Below, in pieces: positions 53,512 to 60,133 of a stretch of DNA of 64,000 nucleotides (position 1 is its first letter; the number at the start of each line of letters is the position of its first letter). The stretch comes from Desulfamplus sp. (GTDB taxonomy: Bacteria; Desulfobacterota; Desulfobacteria; Desulfobacterales; Desulfobacteraceae): the NCBI GenBank assembly GCA_015232555.1, contig JADFZJ010000015.1, positions 1-64,000 of the forward strand, written 5' to 3'. Under the pieces are notes generated by a model. That model had not been told where the DNA came from. It worked only from the letters and a program-made list of their open reading frames with translations, and did no database searches. The translations under genes and the position numbers were made by a program.

Positions 53512-53862
53512 ATGAAACCATATCCAAGAGCAGATAGGATTGGCGTTGCTATTCAGACCGCTCTTTCTGAGCTGTTGAGTAGAAAAATAGAGGATCCCAG
53601 AATCTCAATGGTAACCATCAGCAGTGTGGAACTTACATCAGACTTAAGGGTTGCACACATATATTTCACACTGTTTGGTAATCAAGACAAGGTAGAGGAT
53701 GCAATGACGGGTTTTGAAAGTTCTCGTGGTTATATTAAAAAACATATTGCACCTAAACTTGGTCTTAGATATATGCCAGAATTGAAATTTATCTACGATA
53801 AATCCTTTGATCATGGTTCAAAAATTGATGCTCTTCTCAATTCAGTAATTAAGAACAACTGA
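53512..53862 (+). CDS. rbfA: Ribosome-binding factor A
   Basis: RbfA binds the 30S during late maturation and cold adaptation. The 116-residue KH-type protein has RADRIGVAIQTALSELLSRKIEDPRISMVTI, DLRVAHIYFTLFG and RYMPELKFIYDKSFDHGSKI. It starts 28 bases after infB. truB normally follows closely, but here lies about 9.6 kb downstream. Confidence 0.97.
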   Translation: MKPYPRADRIGVAIQTALSELLSRKIEDPRISMVTISSVELTSDLRVAHIYFTLFGNQDKVEDAMTGFESSRGYIKKHIAPKLGLRYMPELKFIYDKSFDHGSKIDALLNSVIKNN

Positions 53863-54148: not shown

Positions 54149-57067
54149 ATGCCAAAACTCATATTTAAAATTTTTTTTATTATAATTTTTATACTTTTTA
54201 TTCTGCCTCTTGTTATCTCCACCGATAATCTCTTTTCCCAAAACTCAGAAGATATTCACATTGCTGTAATAAGTCCTATCTCAGGTCCAAATTCATCCAA
54301 CGGAAAATCCGTTATTCAGGGAATCAGGCTCTATTTTGATGCCCTCAACCAAGCTGGAGGAATTAATGGCAAAAGAATCGTTCTTGATATGTATGATGAT
54401 GAGGATGATGCTGCAAAGGCAGAAGAGCAGGCTCTTAAAATTGTAACTGACAATAAGGCTCTCGCAATTATTGGTCACGAAAGCAGTTCTTGCTCTATCA
54501 ACGGAGGGCGAGTTTATAAGCAAAATCAGATTCCTGCCATATCTCCTACATCAACTGATGTCATGGTAACCAAAGATAATGAGTGGTATTTCAGAACTAC
54601 TTTTCATAATGACTTTCAGGGACGTTTTTTAGCAAATTATATTTCCAAAGTATTCCAGAAAAATATCATCAGTATCATTCATGAAGACCTTGACTATGGA
54701 GCTAATCTTGCTGCTATTTTTCAAAAAACATATCAAGATATGGGTGGAAATGTAAAACATATATGGAGATATGAGGTAAAGGACAAGAATTTAGATTTGC
54801 GGCTGAAACAGATTGTTGATGAATTGCAAAGCAACGCTGACAATGCAGGGCTCATTTTTCTTGCACTACACCCTCCTGAAGGATTTAAGCTTATAAAGTT
54901 GATAAGAGACAGTGGGATTAAAAATCCTGTTCTTTTTGCAGCAGGTATTGATTCTCCTGAATTCTTAAAACAATTCGATAAATTTCCGAAAGAGAAGAAC
55001 AACCCTGGATATTATACAAATGGCATGTATGCGGCAAGCGGCATTATCTTTGACACGGCAGATGAAAATGTTCAGGCTTTTATTGAATCCTACCATTTAA
55101 AATATGGTGAAGAGGCTAACCGGAGGGCAGCATTTTCATATGATGCAGCAAAGGTAATCCATAAGGCTATCATTAACGCTGGAATAAAAGGCAAGCAAAA
55201 CACTTTAAAAGAAGATCGAAAAAAGATCAGGGATTATCTTGCCTCGCTCAACAATCCTTTTGATGCTGTAGAGGGGGTTACTGGATTCACATATTTTAAT
55301 GAAACAGGAGATCCGTCTAAACCCATTTCAATGGGAATTTTCAAAAATCAGCAACTTATATCTGCTCCAGTCCAGATACAAGATATCCAGTATCTCAACG
55401 AAATTCCAGATTTTGATAGGGCACTAAAAGAAGAACGGGTGCTTATTATGGATAACAAATATATGTATAAGACCAATGTGGTCTATACTGGTATAAAAAT
55501 CAACAAACTAACTGAAATTGATGTAAAATCACTGACTTTTATGTCTGATTTTTATATTTGGTTTAGATATTACGGAGATATACAACCACAAAAAATAGAA
55601 TTCCTTAATGCTGTAGAACCGCTTGATCTTGGCTTGCCTGTAGATAAGAAAATAACAGATCAGATTACCTACCAATTATATCATGTGAAAGGGCGTTTTC
55701 GGATGGACGCTTTTAAAGATCGCCGCATTTTTGGGGAGCATGTTTTAGGAATAGGGTTTCGTCATATCGACATGCCCCGATGCAATCTTATCTATGTAAC
55801 GGATTTATTGGGGATGGGATCGACAGAATCCTTGGAGGAGAAAATCAGAAAATCTCAGGCACTCAATCCAGAATATGGCTGGACTGTGAGCCGTGTTGCA
55901 TTCTATCAAGGTATCTCAAAAAAAGAGTCTCTTGGTAATCCCGAGCATCTTAATAATCAATCAGGCATAGTTGACTATTCAAGATTTAATATTGGAATCC
56001 GTATTAAAAAAGTAGAATTCAAGATTAGACGGAATATTCCGTTGATGGTTGCAAAATGTCTGGCCGTTATCTCTGTTTTTGTCTTATTATCAATTTTACT
56101 TATCGGGGTAAAAAGAGACTCTTTCTTAAAAAGAAAATCAATTTTATTGACTCAGGCTATCTCTCTCTTTCTGTTTTTATTAAGCGTAGAGATGGTTTTA
56201 TTGCAATGGCTCATAGAGAACAATGAAGCGTATGATCCTCAATTAACCATACAAATATTTGACATTTTATGGTGGGTGAGCCTCGGATTTTTTTTGAACA
56301 TGGCATTTGAACGATTTATCTGGATACCTATAGAAAAACGTGCAAATAGAAGCATACCTAATCTTGTACGTCGCTGTGTCTCTTTGATCGTCTGGATGCT
56401 TGTGTTTTCAGGAATTATAGCTTTTGTATTTGATCAAAAAATAACCAGTCTTTTAGCAACTTCTGGTATGATCGCCATGATTATAGGTTTGGCAATACAG
56501 ATTAATATTTCTAATATATTTTCAGGAATTGCTATAAATATAGAGAGACCGTTCCGCATTGGTGACTGGATTAAACTCAATGACAAATTTGAAGGAAAGG
56601 TCGTTGATATAACATGGCGTACGACCAGAATACATACTCCAGCTAATAATATCCTGAGTGTTCCCAACTCAATGGCATCAGAGGCTGTTATTCAGAACTT
56701 TGACTATCCAGATGATTCCTATTCAATCATCATCAAGATTCATGTTGATCCTGAACATAATCCTGAACATGTGGAAAAAATACTTTTAAATGCAATGCTT
56801 TCCGATGAAGAGGTTAAAAATGCTGTTGTTAGGTTTGATTTTGGGGAGTGGTCAAATGAATATCTTGCCATATTTAAAGTTAAAAATTATGGAAAGATGC
56901 GGTTGTATCGGCACAAGGTTGCAAAAAGAATATATCACGCTCTTAATGAGGCACAAATCGTGAATACCAATATGTCTCACAATGTAAATAAAATATACAG
57001 TATGGATAAAATTGAAAATTTAAAAGAACTCACGGGAGAGGAAAATATTATTGAAGCGATACATTGA
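54149..57067 (+). CDS. Fusion of a periplasmic binding protein, a pentameric-channel-like ligand domain and an MscS-type channel
   Basis: The 972-residue protein is a predicted ligand-controlled channel. Residues 1-30 are a signal or anchor helix. Residues 33-415 resemble the Leu/Ile/Val-type binding proteins (IAVISPISGPNSSNGKSVIQGIRLYFDALNQAGG, ESSSCSINGG, AFSYDAAKVIHKA). Residues about 440-628 resemble the extracellular domain of Cys-loop-type channels (TGIKINKLTEIDVKSLTF, SDFYIWFRYYGD, then YSRFNIGIRIKKVEFKIRRNIPL before the membrane). Helices follow at about 630-654, 665-688, 700-722 and 740-762. Then comes the MscS pore helix and beta domain (TSGMIAMIIGLAIQINISNIFSG, ERPFRIGDWIKL, 765-945). 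The first and last parts I recognise with good confidence; the middle domain by pattern only. Confidence 0.8.
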   Translation: MPKLIFKIFFIIIFILFILPLVISTDNLFSQNSEDIHIAVISPISGPNSSNGKSVIQGIRLYFDALNQAGGINGKRIVLDMYDDEDDAAKAEEQALKIVTDNKALAIIGHESSSCSINGGRVYKQNQIPAISPTSTDVMVTKDNEWYFRTTFHNDFQGRFLANYISKVFQKNIISIIHEDLDYGANLAAIFQKTYQDMGGNVKHIWRYEVKDKNLDLRLKQIVDELQSNADNAGLIFLALHPPEGFKLIKLIRDSGIKNPVLFAAGIDSPEFLKQFDKFPKEKNNPGYYTNGMYAASGIIFDTADENVQAFIESYHLKYGEEANRRAAFSYDAAKVIHKAIINAGIKGKQNTLKEDRKKIRDYLASLNNPFDAVEGVTGFTYFNETGDPSKPISMGIFKNQQLISAPVQIQDIQYLNEIPDFDRALKEERVLIMDNKYMYKTNVVYTGIKINKLTEIDVKSLTFMSDFYIWFRYYGDIQPQKIEFLNAVEPLDLGLPVDKKITDQITYQLYHVKGRFRMDAFKDRRIFGEHVLGIGFRHIDMPRCNLIYVTDLLGMGSTESLEEKIRKSQALNPEYGWTVSRVAFYQGISKKESLGNPEHLNNQSGIVDYSRFNIGIRIKKVEFKIRRNIPLMVAKCLAVISVFVLLSILLIGVKRDSFLKRKSILLTQAISLFLFLLSVEMVLLQWLIENNEAYDPQLTIQIFDILWWVSLGFFLNMAFERFIWIPIEKRANRSIPNLVRRCVSLIVWMLVFSGIIAFVFDQKITSLLATSGMIAMIIGLAIQINISNIFSGIAINIERPFRIGDWIKLNDKFEGKVVDITWRTTRIHTPANNILSVPNSMASEAVIQNFDYPDDSYSIIIKIHVDPEHNPEHVEKILLNAMLSDEEVKNAVVRFDFGEWSNEYLAIFKVKNYGKMRLYRHKVAKRIYHALNEAQIVNTNMSHNVNKIYSMDKIENLKELTGEENIIEAIH

Positions 57068-57173: not shown

Positions 57174-59084
57174 ATGACAACACAAAACGAACCATCTGTA
57201 ATATCATCTAACAGCTCACTTTTGGACAAGCTTATTTCTGATCCTATTCTGAAAAATGCTTCGTCAAGAGATATGGCTCACATGCTTATGCACGTAGAGT
57301 ATCGCCGCGTTGAGAAGGGTGAAATTCTACTTCACGAAAACGAACCCGCAGATAAGTTATTTCTTATTGAAAGCGGGGAATTCAAATTTTTGAGGCAGGG
57401 ATCGGATACAGAAATAGAAAGACGTAAAATAATTCCCATATCTGGAGGCTATTTAGGACAAGAAGGTGTGCTCGGATCAGAGGTTTATGTCATGTCAGTC
57501 GTTGTTTCAGAACCATCGACTGTAATAGTAATTCCTACCAGAGATATTTTGCGTATTACCGATACCTCCCCTGAAATTAAAAACAGTTTTTTTGAATCCT
57601 ATACAAATAGGGATCCCGCCACGCCTGAAAAAATAGTACAGCAAAAAAATATTATTGATACATCTAAAGAAGAGGAGCCTTTTCCTATCAAAGCAACTAT
57701 AGGATGGCTCGTAACATTTCTTGGTAGCGTAGGAGTGTGGGTTGCTGCATCCCATTTCGGACTTGAAAGGAATACCGGCTACTATATAGCAATAATTACA
57801 TCTGCGGTATTCATGTGGATATTTAATATTGTACCTGCATTTGCACCACCGCTTTTCGTAGTGCTCATGGCAATTCTGCTGGACATTGTTCCTCCGAGTG
57901 TTGCAGTGTCGGGATTTGCCTCAGGCAGTTTTTTCATGCTTCTTAGCGTGTTTGGTGTAGGGGCTGTAATGGTTGTCTCAGGGCTGACATTTCGAATCTC
58001 CCTTCTTATCCTGAATCTTGTACCATCATCTTCTTTCTGGTACAGTGTCAGTCTGTTTTTTAGCGGATTTATACTGACACCAGTTGTACCATCCCAAGGG
58101 GCACGTACAGCTATCATATCACCGTTTCTTGTGGACCTTATGGGCGCTTCCGAGCCGAGGGAGAAGGATATGTTAGGTGCTCACTTTGTCAACTGCACTC
58201 TCGGCGGTGTTGGATTGATGGCATCAGTGTTTCTTACTGGAAAACCTGCAAATCTTATAGTTCTTGGTATGTTTGACTATCAGACCCAATTTGCCTTCCA
58301 ATGGCTAAACTGGCTTTTTGCAGCATCGTTTACAGGAATACTAATGTTTATCATGTTTTTTGCTATTTCATGGCTTGTTTTCAAAAACTCCAGGAATTTC
58401 AGAATTCCTCGAAATATCATATCAAAACAGTTAAAAGTTCTGGGTCCAACATCCTCTTTGGAACGGGGAGCTTTGGGAGCTATTGCTATTCTGGTTATAG
58501 GTATTTTATTTACATCTGTGCATAAGGTAGATATCCCATGGATGTCATTTTCTATTCTGACAGTTCTTATTCTCTTCGGATTTATCGGAAACAACGAGAT
58601 TCGCTCCCAAATTGACTGGACAACCTTGATTTTTGTAGGAGCCATAATTGCATGGCTGCCGGTTATGTCCCAGACTGGATTAGATAAGTTAGTAGCAGAT
58701 AATTTAGGATGGCTTGGCGATTATATGAAAACAAGCCTTCCTATGTTTATAGGCATGTTGTGCCTTCTCATAGTCATTGTCCGCCTTGTTTTGCCTGAAC
58801 CAATTACAGTGATTCTTTTTGTTACAGCTCTCTTTCCCCTTGCAAATTCAGCGGGTATTTCTCCGTGGATTGTAGGCTTTATTATTTTGACTATGGCAGA
58901 GGCATATATATTTTCCTATCAATGCGGATATTTTATACAGCTCAAAGAAATTTTATTATTTAACGGTCTTGACAGTGTATATGACGAGCCGAGAATAATT
59001 GTATTTAACGTTCTCATGATCATCGGTCGGGTTTTAGCAATTTATGCTTCGATACCATTCTGGAGGTATATGAATATCATATGA
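57174..59084 (+). CDS. Cyclic-nucleotide-binding domain fused to a DASS/SLC13-type anion transporter
   Basis: Residues about 15-150 are a CRP-like cyclic-nucleotide-binding fold (VEKGEILLHENEPADKLFLIESGEFKFL, then LGQEGVLGSEVYVMSVVVSEPSTVIVIP). From about 175 to 632 there are roughly 11-13 membrane helices arranged like DASS (SLC13) or ArsB-type transporters, with the re-entrant segment around VPSQGARTAIISPF. The classic SNT sodium motif of DASS is not evident, so the substrate (dicarboxylate, sulfate or other anion) is open. The gene starts 106 bases after the channel fusion and overlaps the next gene by 4 bases (ATGA). I am sure of the two-part layout, less so of the transport class. Confidence 0.8.
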   Translation: MTTQNEPSVISSNSSLLDKLISDPILKNASSRDMAHMLMHVEYRRVEKGEILLHENEPADKLFLIESGEFKFLRQGSDTEIERRKIIPISGGYLGQEGVLGSEVYVMSVVVSEPSTVIVIPTRDILRITDTSPEIKNSFFESYTNRDPATPEKIVQQKNIIDTSKEEEPFPIKATIGWLVTFLGSVGVWVAASHFGLERNTGYYIAIITSAVFMWIFNIVPAFAPPLFVVLMAILLDIVPPSVAVSGFASGSFFMLLSVFGVGAVMVVSGLTFRISLLILNLVPSSSFWYSVSLFFSGFILTPVVPSQGARTAIISPFLVDLMGASEPREKDMLGAHFVNCTLGGVGLMASVFLTGKPANLIVLGMFDYQTQFAFQWLNWLFAASFTGILMFIMFFAISWLVFKNSRNFRIPRNIISKQLKVLGPTSSLERGALGAIAILVIGILFTSVHKVDIPWMSFSILTVLILFGFIGNNEIRSQIDWTTLIFVGAIIAWLPVMSQTGLDKLVADNLGWLGDYMKTSLPMFIGMLCLLIVIVRLVLPEPITVILFVTALFPLANSAGISPWIVGFIILTMAEAYIFSYQCGYFIQLKEILLFNGLDSVYDEPRIIVFNVLMIIGRVLAIYASIPFWRYMNII

Positions 59085-60133
59085 ATATTAAAAAACATTT
59101 TCTACTATTCCTAAAGATAACTATTGTAATACTTGTGGCAGGCTTCATCCTTGCCCAGAAAGCACAAAAACCGAGAATACTCGTTATGCACAGTTACCAT
59201 ACTGACTATCCTTGGGTTATCCAGATGGACGAGGGTATTCGAAGGATTTTTGAGAGTCGTCAGGGCATCACATTGAGACACTACTACATGGACCTTAAAA
59301 ACCATACATCAGATGATTTTAAGAGAACAGCCGCTGCTACAGCCCACATTACAATTAAAAACTGGAAGCCTGATGTTCTTATAATTGCTGATGATATAGG
59401 TCAAAAATTGGTTGGTATGAAATATCTTAATGATCCCTCTATAAAAATCGTATTCTGTGCGGTGAACGGCGGCGTAGATATATACGGATATGATAAAGCA
59501 GACAATGTTACAGGAATATTTGAACGTAAACCCTTATCTGCTATCAGAGAAACTCTACTTATGATTGCACGGGCAAGAGGTATAAGTTCTGACGTTACTG
59601 GGAAGAAACCAAAAGTAGTCTTTGTTTGTGATGAGTCTGGTTCAGTTACAGCAGAACTTCCTGGTCTCAACTCCTTTGATTGGGAAGGTCTTGAATGGCT
59701 TCCTCCTGTACGGGTAGATAATTTTGATGCGTGGAAAAAGGCTATCAACGAAGTCAACGGTTATGCAGATATTATTCTGGTGAGTGATTACAGGGAATTT
59801 AGACTGCCTTCTGGTGAAAAAGAGCCAATTCCACCTTCGGATATTATGGCATGGACAGAGGCTAATTCTAAAATTCCAATTTTAGGAATGTCTCTTATTA
59901 ATGTATATGATGGCGGTATGTTATCCGTCTTTACTTCAGGATATGAACAGGGTGAAGTTGCAGGAAGCATGGCTTTTGATATTGTACGTGGGAAAAATCC
60001 TAAAGAGATTCCTTTTGCTGATACCAAACAATTTCTTATTTCTGTCCGTAAATCTGCTACAGACAATCGTGGACTTCCAATTCCTGCGATTTATGAAGCC
60101 TTTGCCAGAGCTACAGAGAACTTTTATGAGTAA
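59081..60133 (+). CDS. Membrane-anchored ABC-type substrate-binding protein (ABC_sub_bind family)
   Basis: The 350-residue protein has an N-terminal hydrophobic anchor (about 7-25) without a lipobox cysteine. A two-lobed binding fold follows: ILVMHSYHTDYPWVIQMDEGIRRIF, KPDVLIIADDIGQKLVG, FCAVNGG, and the later IPILGMSLINVYDGGMLSVFTSGYEQGEVAG. This is the ABC_sub_bind pattern (PF04392-like). It overlaps the transporter gene by 4 bases, so the two are made together, but there is no ABC permease or ATPase in the window. It could present ligand to the transporter or the channel fusion; that is inference. Confidence 0.75.
   Translation: MNIKKHFLLFLKITIVILVAGFILAQKAQKPRILVMHSYHTDYPWVIQMDEGIRRIFESRQGITLRHYYMDLKNHTSDDFKRTAAATAHITIKNWKPDVLIIADDIGQKLVGMKYLNDPSIKIVFCAVNGGVDIYGYDKADNVTGIFERKPLSAIRETLLMIARARGISSDVTGKKPKVVFVCDESGSVTAELPGLNSFDWEGLEWLPPVRVDNFDAWKKAINEVNGYADIILVSDYREFRLPSGEKEPIPPSDIMAWTEANSKIPILGMSLINVYDGGMLSVFTSGYEQGEVAGSMAFDIVRGKNPKEIPFADTKQFLISVRKSATDNRGLPIPAIYEAFARATENFYE

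Follow-up and report, generated by a model that had tools for sequence, protein, structure and literature searches.

Positions 54149 to 57067 on the forward strand of the window, i.e., the whole 64,000-nucleotide stretch of contig JADFZJ010000015.1 analyzed here, hold one uninterrupted frame of a Desulfamplus-like bacterium, with an ATG start and a stop codon. The encoded protein of 972 residues, P0001, to which all residue numbers refer, joins three parts in a single chain: a type-I periplasmic binding protein (PBP) domain of the Leu/Ile/Val (LIV) type, an all-β middle domain, and an MscS channel. A first-pass annotation, made from the letters of the window, had read the same unbroken frame, a LIV-type binding domain at residues 33–415, and an MscS channel with four membrane helices ahead of its pore helix; each of these was borne out. 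Pfam places Peripla_BP_6 at residues 36–393 (E 5.9e-40) and MS_channel_2nd (PF00924) at residues 787–851 (5e-19), and finds nothing in residues 400–640 at E up to 1. No cyclic-nucleotide-binding domain (CNBD), a domain that recurs below, is found by Pfam in P0001 itself.

The full-length AlphaFold2 model, built from 75 natural sequences, has a pLDDT of 85.4 and a pTM of 0.69. It contains a two-lobed PBP at residues 36–412, the all-β domain at about 430–621, five membrane helices, and the β and cage domains of MscS. The last strand of the β domain leads into the first membrane helix within about 10 residues. At the other end of the chain, residues 2–32 are modeled as a helix that would be an export signal or a membrane anchor. 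In the 75-row alignment, identity to P0001 is 72–79% for the five Desulfamplus relatives and 29–56% for the remaining 69 rows.

The two-lobed LIV-type fold is matched by phmmer against the PDB (5.3e-27), where LIV-type PBPs align within residues 34–402, and by Foldseek (1.5e-24 to LivK, 3td9). The best 50 Foldseek matches of the full-length model are all type-I binding-protein folds, including metabotropic receptors and sensors, and are thus uninformative on the remaining domains. The pore part is equally distinct. Residues 656–850 match E. coli YnaI (phmmer, 3.9e-16), the best match among solved members of the MscS family, and the β domain that follows the pore helix is confirmed by PF00924 at 68.6 bits (cut-off, 20.2). 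Within the pore helix, G780, N786, and N789 are present in 75/75 rows, L781 in 72, and M777 in 71; M777 and L781 we take to be the hydrophobic MscS gate, going by E. coli MscS numbering. By its pore, P0001 belongs to the MscS superfamily.

Table 1. Features of the P0001 locus in window coordinates (pLGIC, pentameric ligand-gated ion channel; AF2, AlphaFold2; ORF, open reading frame).
Feature	Position	Strand	Basis
Complete gene, PBP–pLGIC-type extracellular domain–MscS channel, 972 residues	54149..57067	+	ORF, Pfam, AF2 model
N-terminal hydrophobic helix, residues 2–32	54152..54244	+	AF2 model; hydropathy peak 5–23
Type-I periplasmic binding domain, LIV type, residues 36–412	54254..55384	+	Pfam, PDB phmmer, Foldseek
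pLGIC-type extracellular β-sandwich, residues 430–621	55436..56011	+	Profiles, predicted fold
Pro-loop (Cys-loop equivalent) region, residues 517–537, signature proline absent (I527)	55697..55759	+	Alignment
Five predicted membrane helices, YnaI-like: 632–655, 663–691, 697–732, 738–760, 765–799 (last is the pore helix)	56042..56545	+	phmmer, AF2 model
MscS β domain and C-terminal cage domain, residues 800–940	56546..56968	+	PF00924 at 787–851; AF2 model
Downstream gene, CNBD and DASS-type anion symporter	57174..59084	+	Pfam; starts 106 bases after the P0001 gene

Identity of the middle domain

The proposal of the first-pass annotation that the middle segment resembles the extracellular domain (ECD) of pLGICs is supported by profile matches and by the predicted fold. 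The link runs largely through a second type of relative. These proteins align to P0001 across most of residues 1–680 at 23–36% identity and have the same middle domain, followed by about four hydrophobic helices in place of MscS; they are called PBP-ECD-4TM here, as against PBP-ECD-MscS. Built from 17 sequences, a profile of the MscS-type middle domain aligns in hhalign with the ECDs of the 4TM relatives at E 9e-55 and 35% identity. In turn, the profile of 15 4TM relatives, ECD plus helices, finds a GABA-A chimera (8e-20), ELIC (1e-16), and GLIC (1e-11) in the PDB. Their ECD alone still reaches 3e-7, and the best 60 of 134 rows are all pLGIC entries by name. A direct route exists as well: an MscS-type ECD profile of 67 sequences matches an alignment of four bacterial pLGIC-type proteins at E 1.2e-15, two of these (L123 and L041) exceeding the Pfam cut-off for the pLGIC ligand domain and the remaining two being without a Pfam match. 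One 4TM-type protein (L113) scores 32.4 bits with the Pfam model of the pLGIC membrane region, above its cut-off of 28.1.

Modeled alone, the middle domain has a pLDDT of 84.9 and a pTM of 0.80. The Foldseek comparison that had been set beforehand as a check returned, among the best 50 matches, only pLGIC or acetylcholine-binding-protein entries, with E from 4.8e-9. VIA-align on these matches gave a Z of 15.5 for a GABA-A receptor (root-mean-square deviation 2.8, 159 residues aligned), 15.2 for sTeLIC, and 15.1 for ELIC. The fold search and the profile matches also rule out that residues 440–628 are an unrelated fold or an MscK-like region.

Several observations weigh against this identification. 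The Foldseek TM-scores are modest, at 0.47–0.58 by query length over the best 50 matches. The MscS-type ECD profile on its own finds no pLGIC in the PDB, either with 17 sequences at E up to 5 or with 67 sequences, where a single unrelated chain appears at E 0.75. When the 15 4TM relatives are run singly against Pfam at E up to 10, Neur_chan_LBD is found in 4 (best 0.0014) and Neur_chan_memb in 2 (best 0.21). The link to pLGICs can be drawn only by way of the 4TM relatives, of bacterial proteins of pLGIC type, or of the predicted fold. Among 146 genomes of the order, the Pfam ligand-domain model detects just 2, the window's own genome going undetected, so that ordinary annotation misses the PBP-ECD family.

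Since neither the four-helix pore nor the Pro-loop proline was found when looked for, P0001 is not itself a pLGIC. A profile of the 4TM part of the relatives, corresponding to helices M1–M4, has no listed match in P0001, the helices of which match YnaI instead. BLAST alignments with the 4TM relatives do continue to about residue 670–685, yet the helix set matches YnaI from residue 656 on, which leaves room for some of M1 to be retained in the first helix. As to the proline, it is found in 18/18 4TM-type rows (two rows being one gene) vs 10/95 MscS-type rows, and the residue after its position is Phe or Tyr in 87 of the latter 95. The core of the domain is retained despite this loss (G448, W471, F472, R473, F517, D552, G596, and S611). 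In pLGICs the Pro-loop contacts the M2–M3 linker. Loss of the proline once that linker is gone is what an exchange of the pore predicts; the receptor domain would have been kept while the element contacting the M2–M3 loop was released.

Distribution of the family and exchange of the pore

A scan of the genome collection patterned on the MscS type gave 187 confirmed relatives, of which the best 80, making up 78 loci, were kept. The homolog search that the first-pass annotation had called for thus found its three-domain order many times over: PBP-ECD-MscS lies in one frame at 71 of the 78 loci, two loci have PBP-ECD-4TM only, and five have cut or broken frames, although a scan of this design makes the ratio of MscS to 4TM types uninformative on their relative abundance. 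The phylum labels of the 71 loci are Pseudomonadota (37), Thermodesulfobacteriota (25), Spirochaetota (4), Myxococcota (2; doubtful, the contigs being titled only Deltaproteobacteria), Cloacimonadota (1), and Cyanobacteriota (1); the last locus is without a label and is SAR324 by title. Named strains with the fusion include Desulfoluna spongiiphila AA1 and Desulfonema magnum 4be13, the latter with a complete chromosome. A C-terminal CNBD is present in 46 of 87 PBP-ECD-MscS frames.

The family is sporadic. Within the window's genus, each of the 10 genomes searched, among them its own, gives a strong match, with a best E of 6.6e-152 or lower. Of 395 genomes sampled evenly across the phylum, 5 had this ECD at E 1e-10, and among those 5 only the window's genome had it in frames of MscS length (973 and 1008 residues). 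As to viral relatives, three stretches fitted a pattern and none was confirmed.

On a tree of 101 ECD rows, made by a quick method with SH-aLRT support and no bootstrap, one branch (SH-aLRT 99) divides the 17 4TM-type rows from the 84 MscS-type rows, as a single exchange of the pore would do. The CNBD label changes several times on this tree. The PBP tree stands against so simple a history, as its MscS group requires three changes rather than one. A single exchange thus suits the ECD, while for the N-terminal half as a whole it stays unproved. We give about even chances to the proposal that a pLGIC-type pore was exchanged for an MscS pore, which would have created a separate ligand-gated class: a receptor evolved for fivefold symmetry would gate a pore of a sevenfold family, with periplasmic inputs through PBP and ECD and, in many members, a cytoplasmic input through the CNBD.

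Gating and rival explanations

Our preferred reading, which profiles and models make the probable one, is that P0001 is an inner-membrane channel of the MscS superfamily with its gate controlled from the periplasm by the receptor stack common to PBP-fused bacterial pLGICs. The proposed mechanism is as follows. A lobe of the PBP would close on its ligand, a small organic compound that is probably a carboxylate or resembles an amino acid, and the closure would rearrange the ring of pLGIC-type ECDs beneath, which may hold a site of its own at the subunit interface. The ECD would pull on the first membrane helix, the YnaI-like helix bundle would shift, and the hydrophobic gate in the M777/L781 region would open. 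The resulting flow of ions or small osmolytes would alter the content of osmolytes or the membrane potential. The cytoplasmic CNBD that many relatives have would add control by cyclic nucleotides; in Desulfamplus and Desulfoluna the CNBD on the adjacent DASS transporter may take its place.

That P0001 is ligand-gated is likely, going by the kinds of domain it carries and the residues they keep. In the PBP, we take Ser113 to be the equivalent of the carboxylate-binding Ser79 of LIV-type PBPs, Thr136 that of Thr102, and position 265 the expected place of an ammonium-binding acid. Judged by these residues, amino-acid specificity meets with mixed conservation: of the 75 rows, 65 retain Ser113, just 42 retain Thr136, and 30 have Asp at position 265, P0001 having Ala. 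In loop C of the ECD, G596 and S611 are invariant among the 95 MscS-type rows, P598 is kept in 92, and position 610 is aromatic in 94. Y610 presumably corresponds to ELIC F188, a residue of the binding site, by the profile alignment of the 4TM relatives with ELIC, on which the loop B and loop D equivalences rest as well. The loop D position, 469, varies (Y 26, H 16, K 12, F 10, and N 9 of 95), and the loop B position, 540, is mostly basic (R 43 and K 30). Points that tell against the proposed gating are the variable Thr136, the infrequent Asp265, the missing aromatics of loops B and D, and the conflict between the fivefold symmetry of pLGICs and the sevenfold symmetry of MscS. Since only loop C has kept its aromatic, the main role of the ECD may be that of a transducer. 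The two stacked sensors that the first-pass annotation envisaged are something we infer from Ser113 and the loop-C aromatic, both largely kept; the canonical aromatics of the other two loops have gone, and the remaining PBP contacts are variable.

The channel might still be an osmotic release valve, its PBP and ECD forming a structural periplasmic region like that of MscK that merely tunes or anchors it. The MscS signature in the pore, the YnaI-like helix set, and the partial conservation of the canonical aromatic box all suit such a valve. Yet two small-molecule-binding domains occur together in 87 frames, the PBP serine is kept, the same receptor pair is found in the pLGIC-type relatives, and the CNBD fused in more than half of those frames points to chemical control; we consider the valve unlikely. 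Lower still do we place a closed or vestigial pore, with signaling by conformation or by contact with a partner, such as the CNBD-DASS transporter or a TolC-type protein. Constant gene neighbors speak for it: a homolog of the CNBD-DASS gene comes next in 7/7 Desulfamplus and Desulfoluna loci of the P0001 type (L043–L049), besides the window, and a homolog of a TolC-type gene comes next in 11/11 loci of a paralog clade. The strong conservation of the pore-helix residues and of the hydrophobic gate positions would nevertheless be superfluous in a dead pore. To the joining of separate genes by an assembly or sequencing error, a possibility raised by the first-pass annotation itself, we give next to no credence. 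A good many genomes in the set were assembled from metagenomes, and the frames at L072, L078, and L082 are broken; the recurrence of the same order across several phyla, at 71 of the 78 loci and with D. spongiiphila AA1 and D. magnum 4be13 among the strains, refutes it.

Neighboring genes and known systems

The P0001 gene starts 286 bases past a frame ending at 53862, which we take to be rbfA-like. Beyond the CNBD-DASS gene, which it overlaps by 4 bases, lies a gene for a substrate-binding-type protein, ABC_sub_bind (59081–60133). Elsewhere in the same genome, contig C84 (G000:C84; L021:905-5423) carries a second PBP-ECD-MscS gene followed by a TolC-type outer-membrane gene. The paralog clade to which the 11 loci above belong includes Magnetococcales and one gammaproteobacterium, the TolC-type assignment resting on Pfam at three loci and on BLAST at the others. 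The arrangement hints that paralog and TolC-type protein may form a ligand-gated trans-envelope conduit.

Two frames, PBP-ECD-MscS upstream and PBP-ECD-MscS-CNBD downstream, are found together at 14 of the 78 loci (the upstream frame at L078 is broken). On the ECD tree, all 14 upstream copies group into a single cluster (SH-aLRT 91) and the downstream copies adjoin it in two clusters, suggesting that such copies may be paired subunits. At one locus (L101:984-6604), the CNBD-bearing form is followed by a gene for a dCache-adenylate/guanylate cyclase.

Other arrangements were met among the 4TM-type and plain relatives. In Candidatus Parabeggiatoa (L113:4687-8322), a single 1212-residue frame has PBP-I, a pLGIC-type ECD, four helices, and a C-terminal SBP_bac_1. 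At L123:201-2548 a separate PBP gene immediately precedes a plain pLGIC gene with Neur_chan_LBD above cut-off, i.e., the unfused form. At L030:1064-5999 two separate MscS frames (Pfam on one) precede a PBP-ECD-4TM gene on the same strand, so that the parts are adjacent and unfused. Directly upstream of PBP-ECD-4TM genes there is a Peripla_BP_6 and SBP_bac_5 fusion gene (Pfam) at L027, L031, and L032, and a gene with at least a PBP at L029.

Among solved MscS-family proteins, P0001 is most like YnaI, which has five membrane helices, as does the P0001 model. YnaI is not known to have a large periplasmic receptor region, whereas P0001 has about 600 residues of ligand-binding folds ahead of its pore part. 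The bCNG channels are reportedly MscS-superfamily members with a CNBD (Caldwell 2010). An MscS pore with a ligand-binding domain is common to bCNG channels and the P0001 family, the CNBD being C-terminal in the relatives that have one; unlike bCNG channels, P0001 has no CNBD in its chain, and in the window the CNBD sits on the next gene. No PBP or ECD is known to us in bCNG channels. To our knowledge, the ECD of pLGICs, bacterial or animal, is always found on the same four-helix, fivefold pore. P0001 resembles the PBP-I-fused bacterial pLGICs in the order of PBP and ECD and in an ECD homologous to theirs; it differs in that a five-helix MscS pore with β and cage domains replaces the four-helix pore and the Pro-loop proline is missing.

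Fusions of PBP and pLGIC are already known: Tasneem et al. 2004 (PMC549065) describe PBP-I fused to pLGICs in Magnetospirillum and Bradyrhizobium, for which a chemotaxis-receptor role was suggested, and operons of pLGICs with other binding proteins. The bCNG channels are a precedent for ligand-gated MscS, and some of the 15 MscS subfamilies have ligand-binding domains (PMC4560390). DeCLIC has a pLGIC ECD beneath an extra N-terminal periplasmic sensor (PMC9897478, PMC12664993), a likeness to P0001, but its N-terminal domains are others and its pore is the normal one of pLGICs. 'MscS' is absent from the available text of Tasneem et al. 2004 and of both DeCLIC papers, as are 'mechanosensitive' and 'periplasmic' from that of Jaiteh 2016 (PMC4795631). 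No report of a pLGIC-ECD/MscS fusion was found in the PMC literature, subscription papers, including those on MscS subfamilies, lying outside the search.

P0001 puts the ligand-binding half of a channel of the nicotinic and GABA receptor type, as used for neurotransmitters, onto the pore of an unrelated channel type that is gated by tension. If its parts work as suggested, it would be an unfamiliar kind of chemically gated channel. A conserved natural fusion of the ECD to an unrelated pore indicates that the receptor module is re-usable, and it offers a test of how ECD motion leads to opening of a gate. Should the pore have been exchanged as proposed, the pLGIC ECD would be a portable gating module, tied neither to the four-helix pore nor to pentamers. 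The fusion also raises a question of symmetry: either a heptameric ring of ECDs is possible, or a pentameric MscS pore is, or there is a mismatch between the two. For the bacteria concerned, the family suggests a route from chemical sensing to an MscS channel in large sulfur bacteria, in Desulfamplus and Magnetococcales, both of which we take to be magnetotactic, and in relatives of Leptospira.

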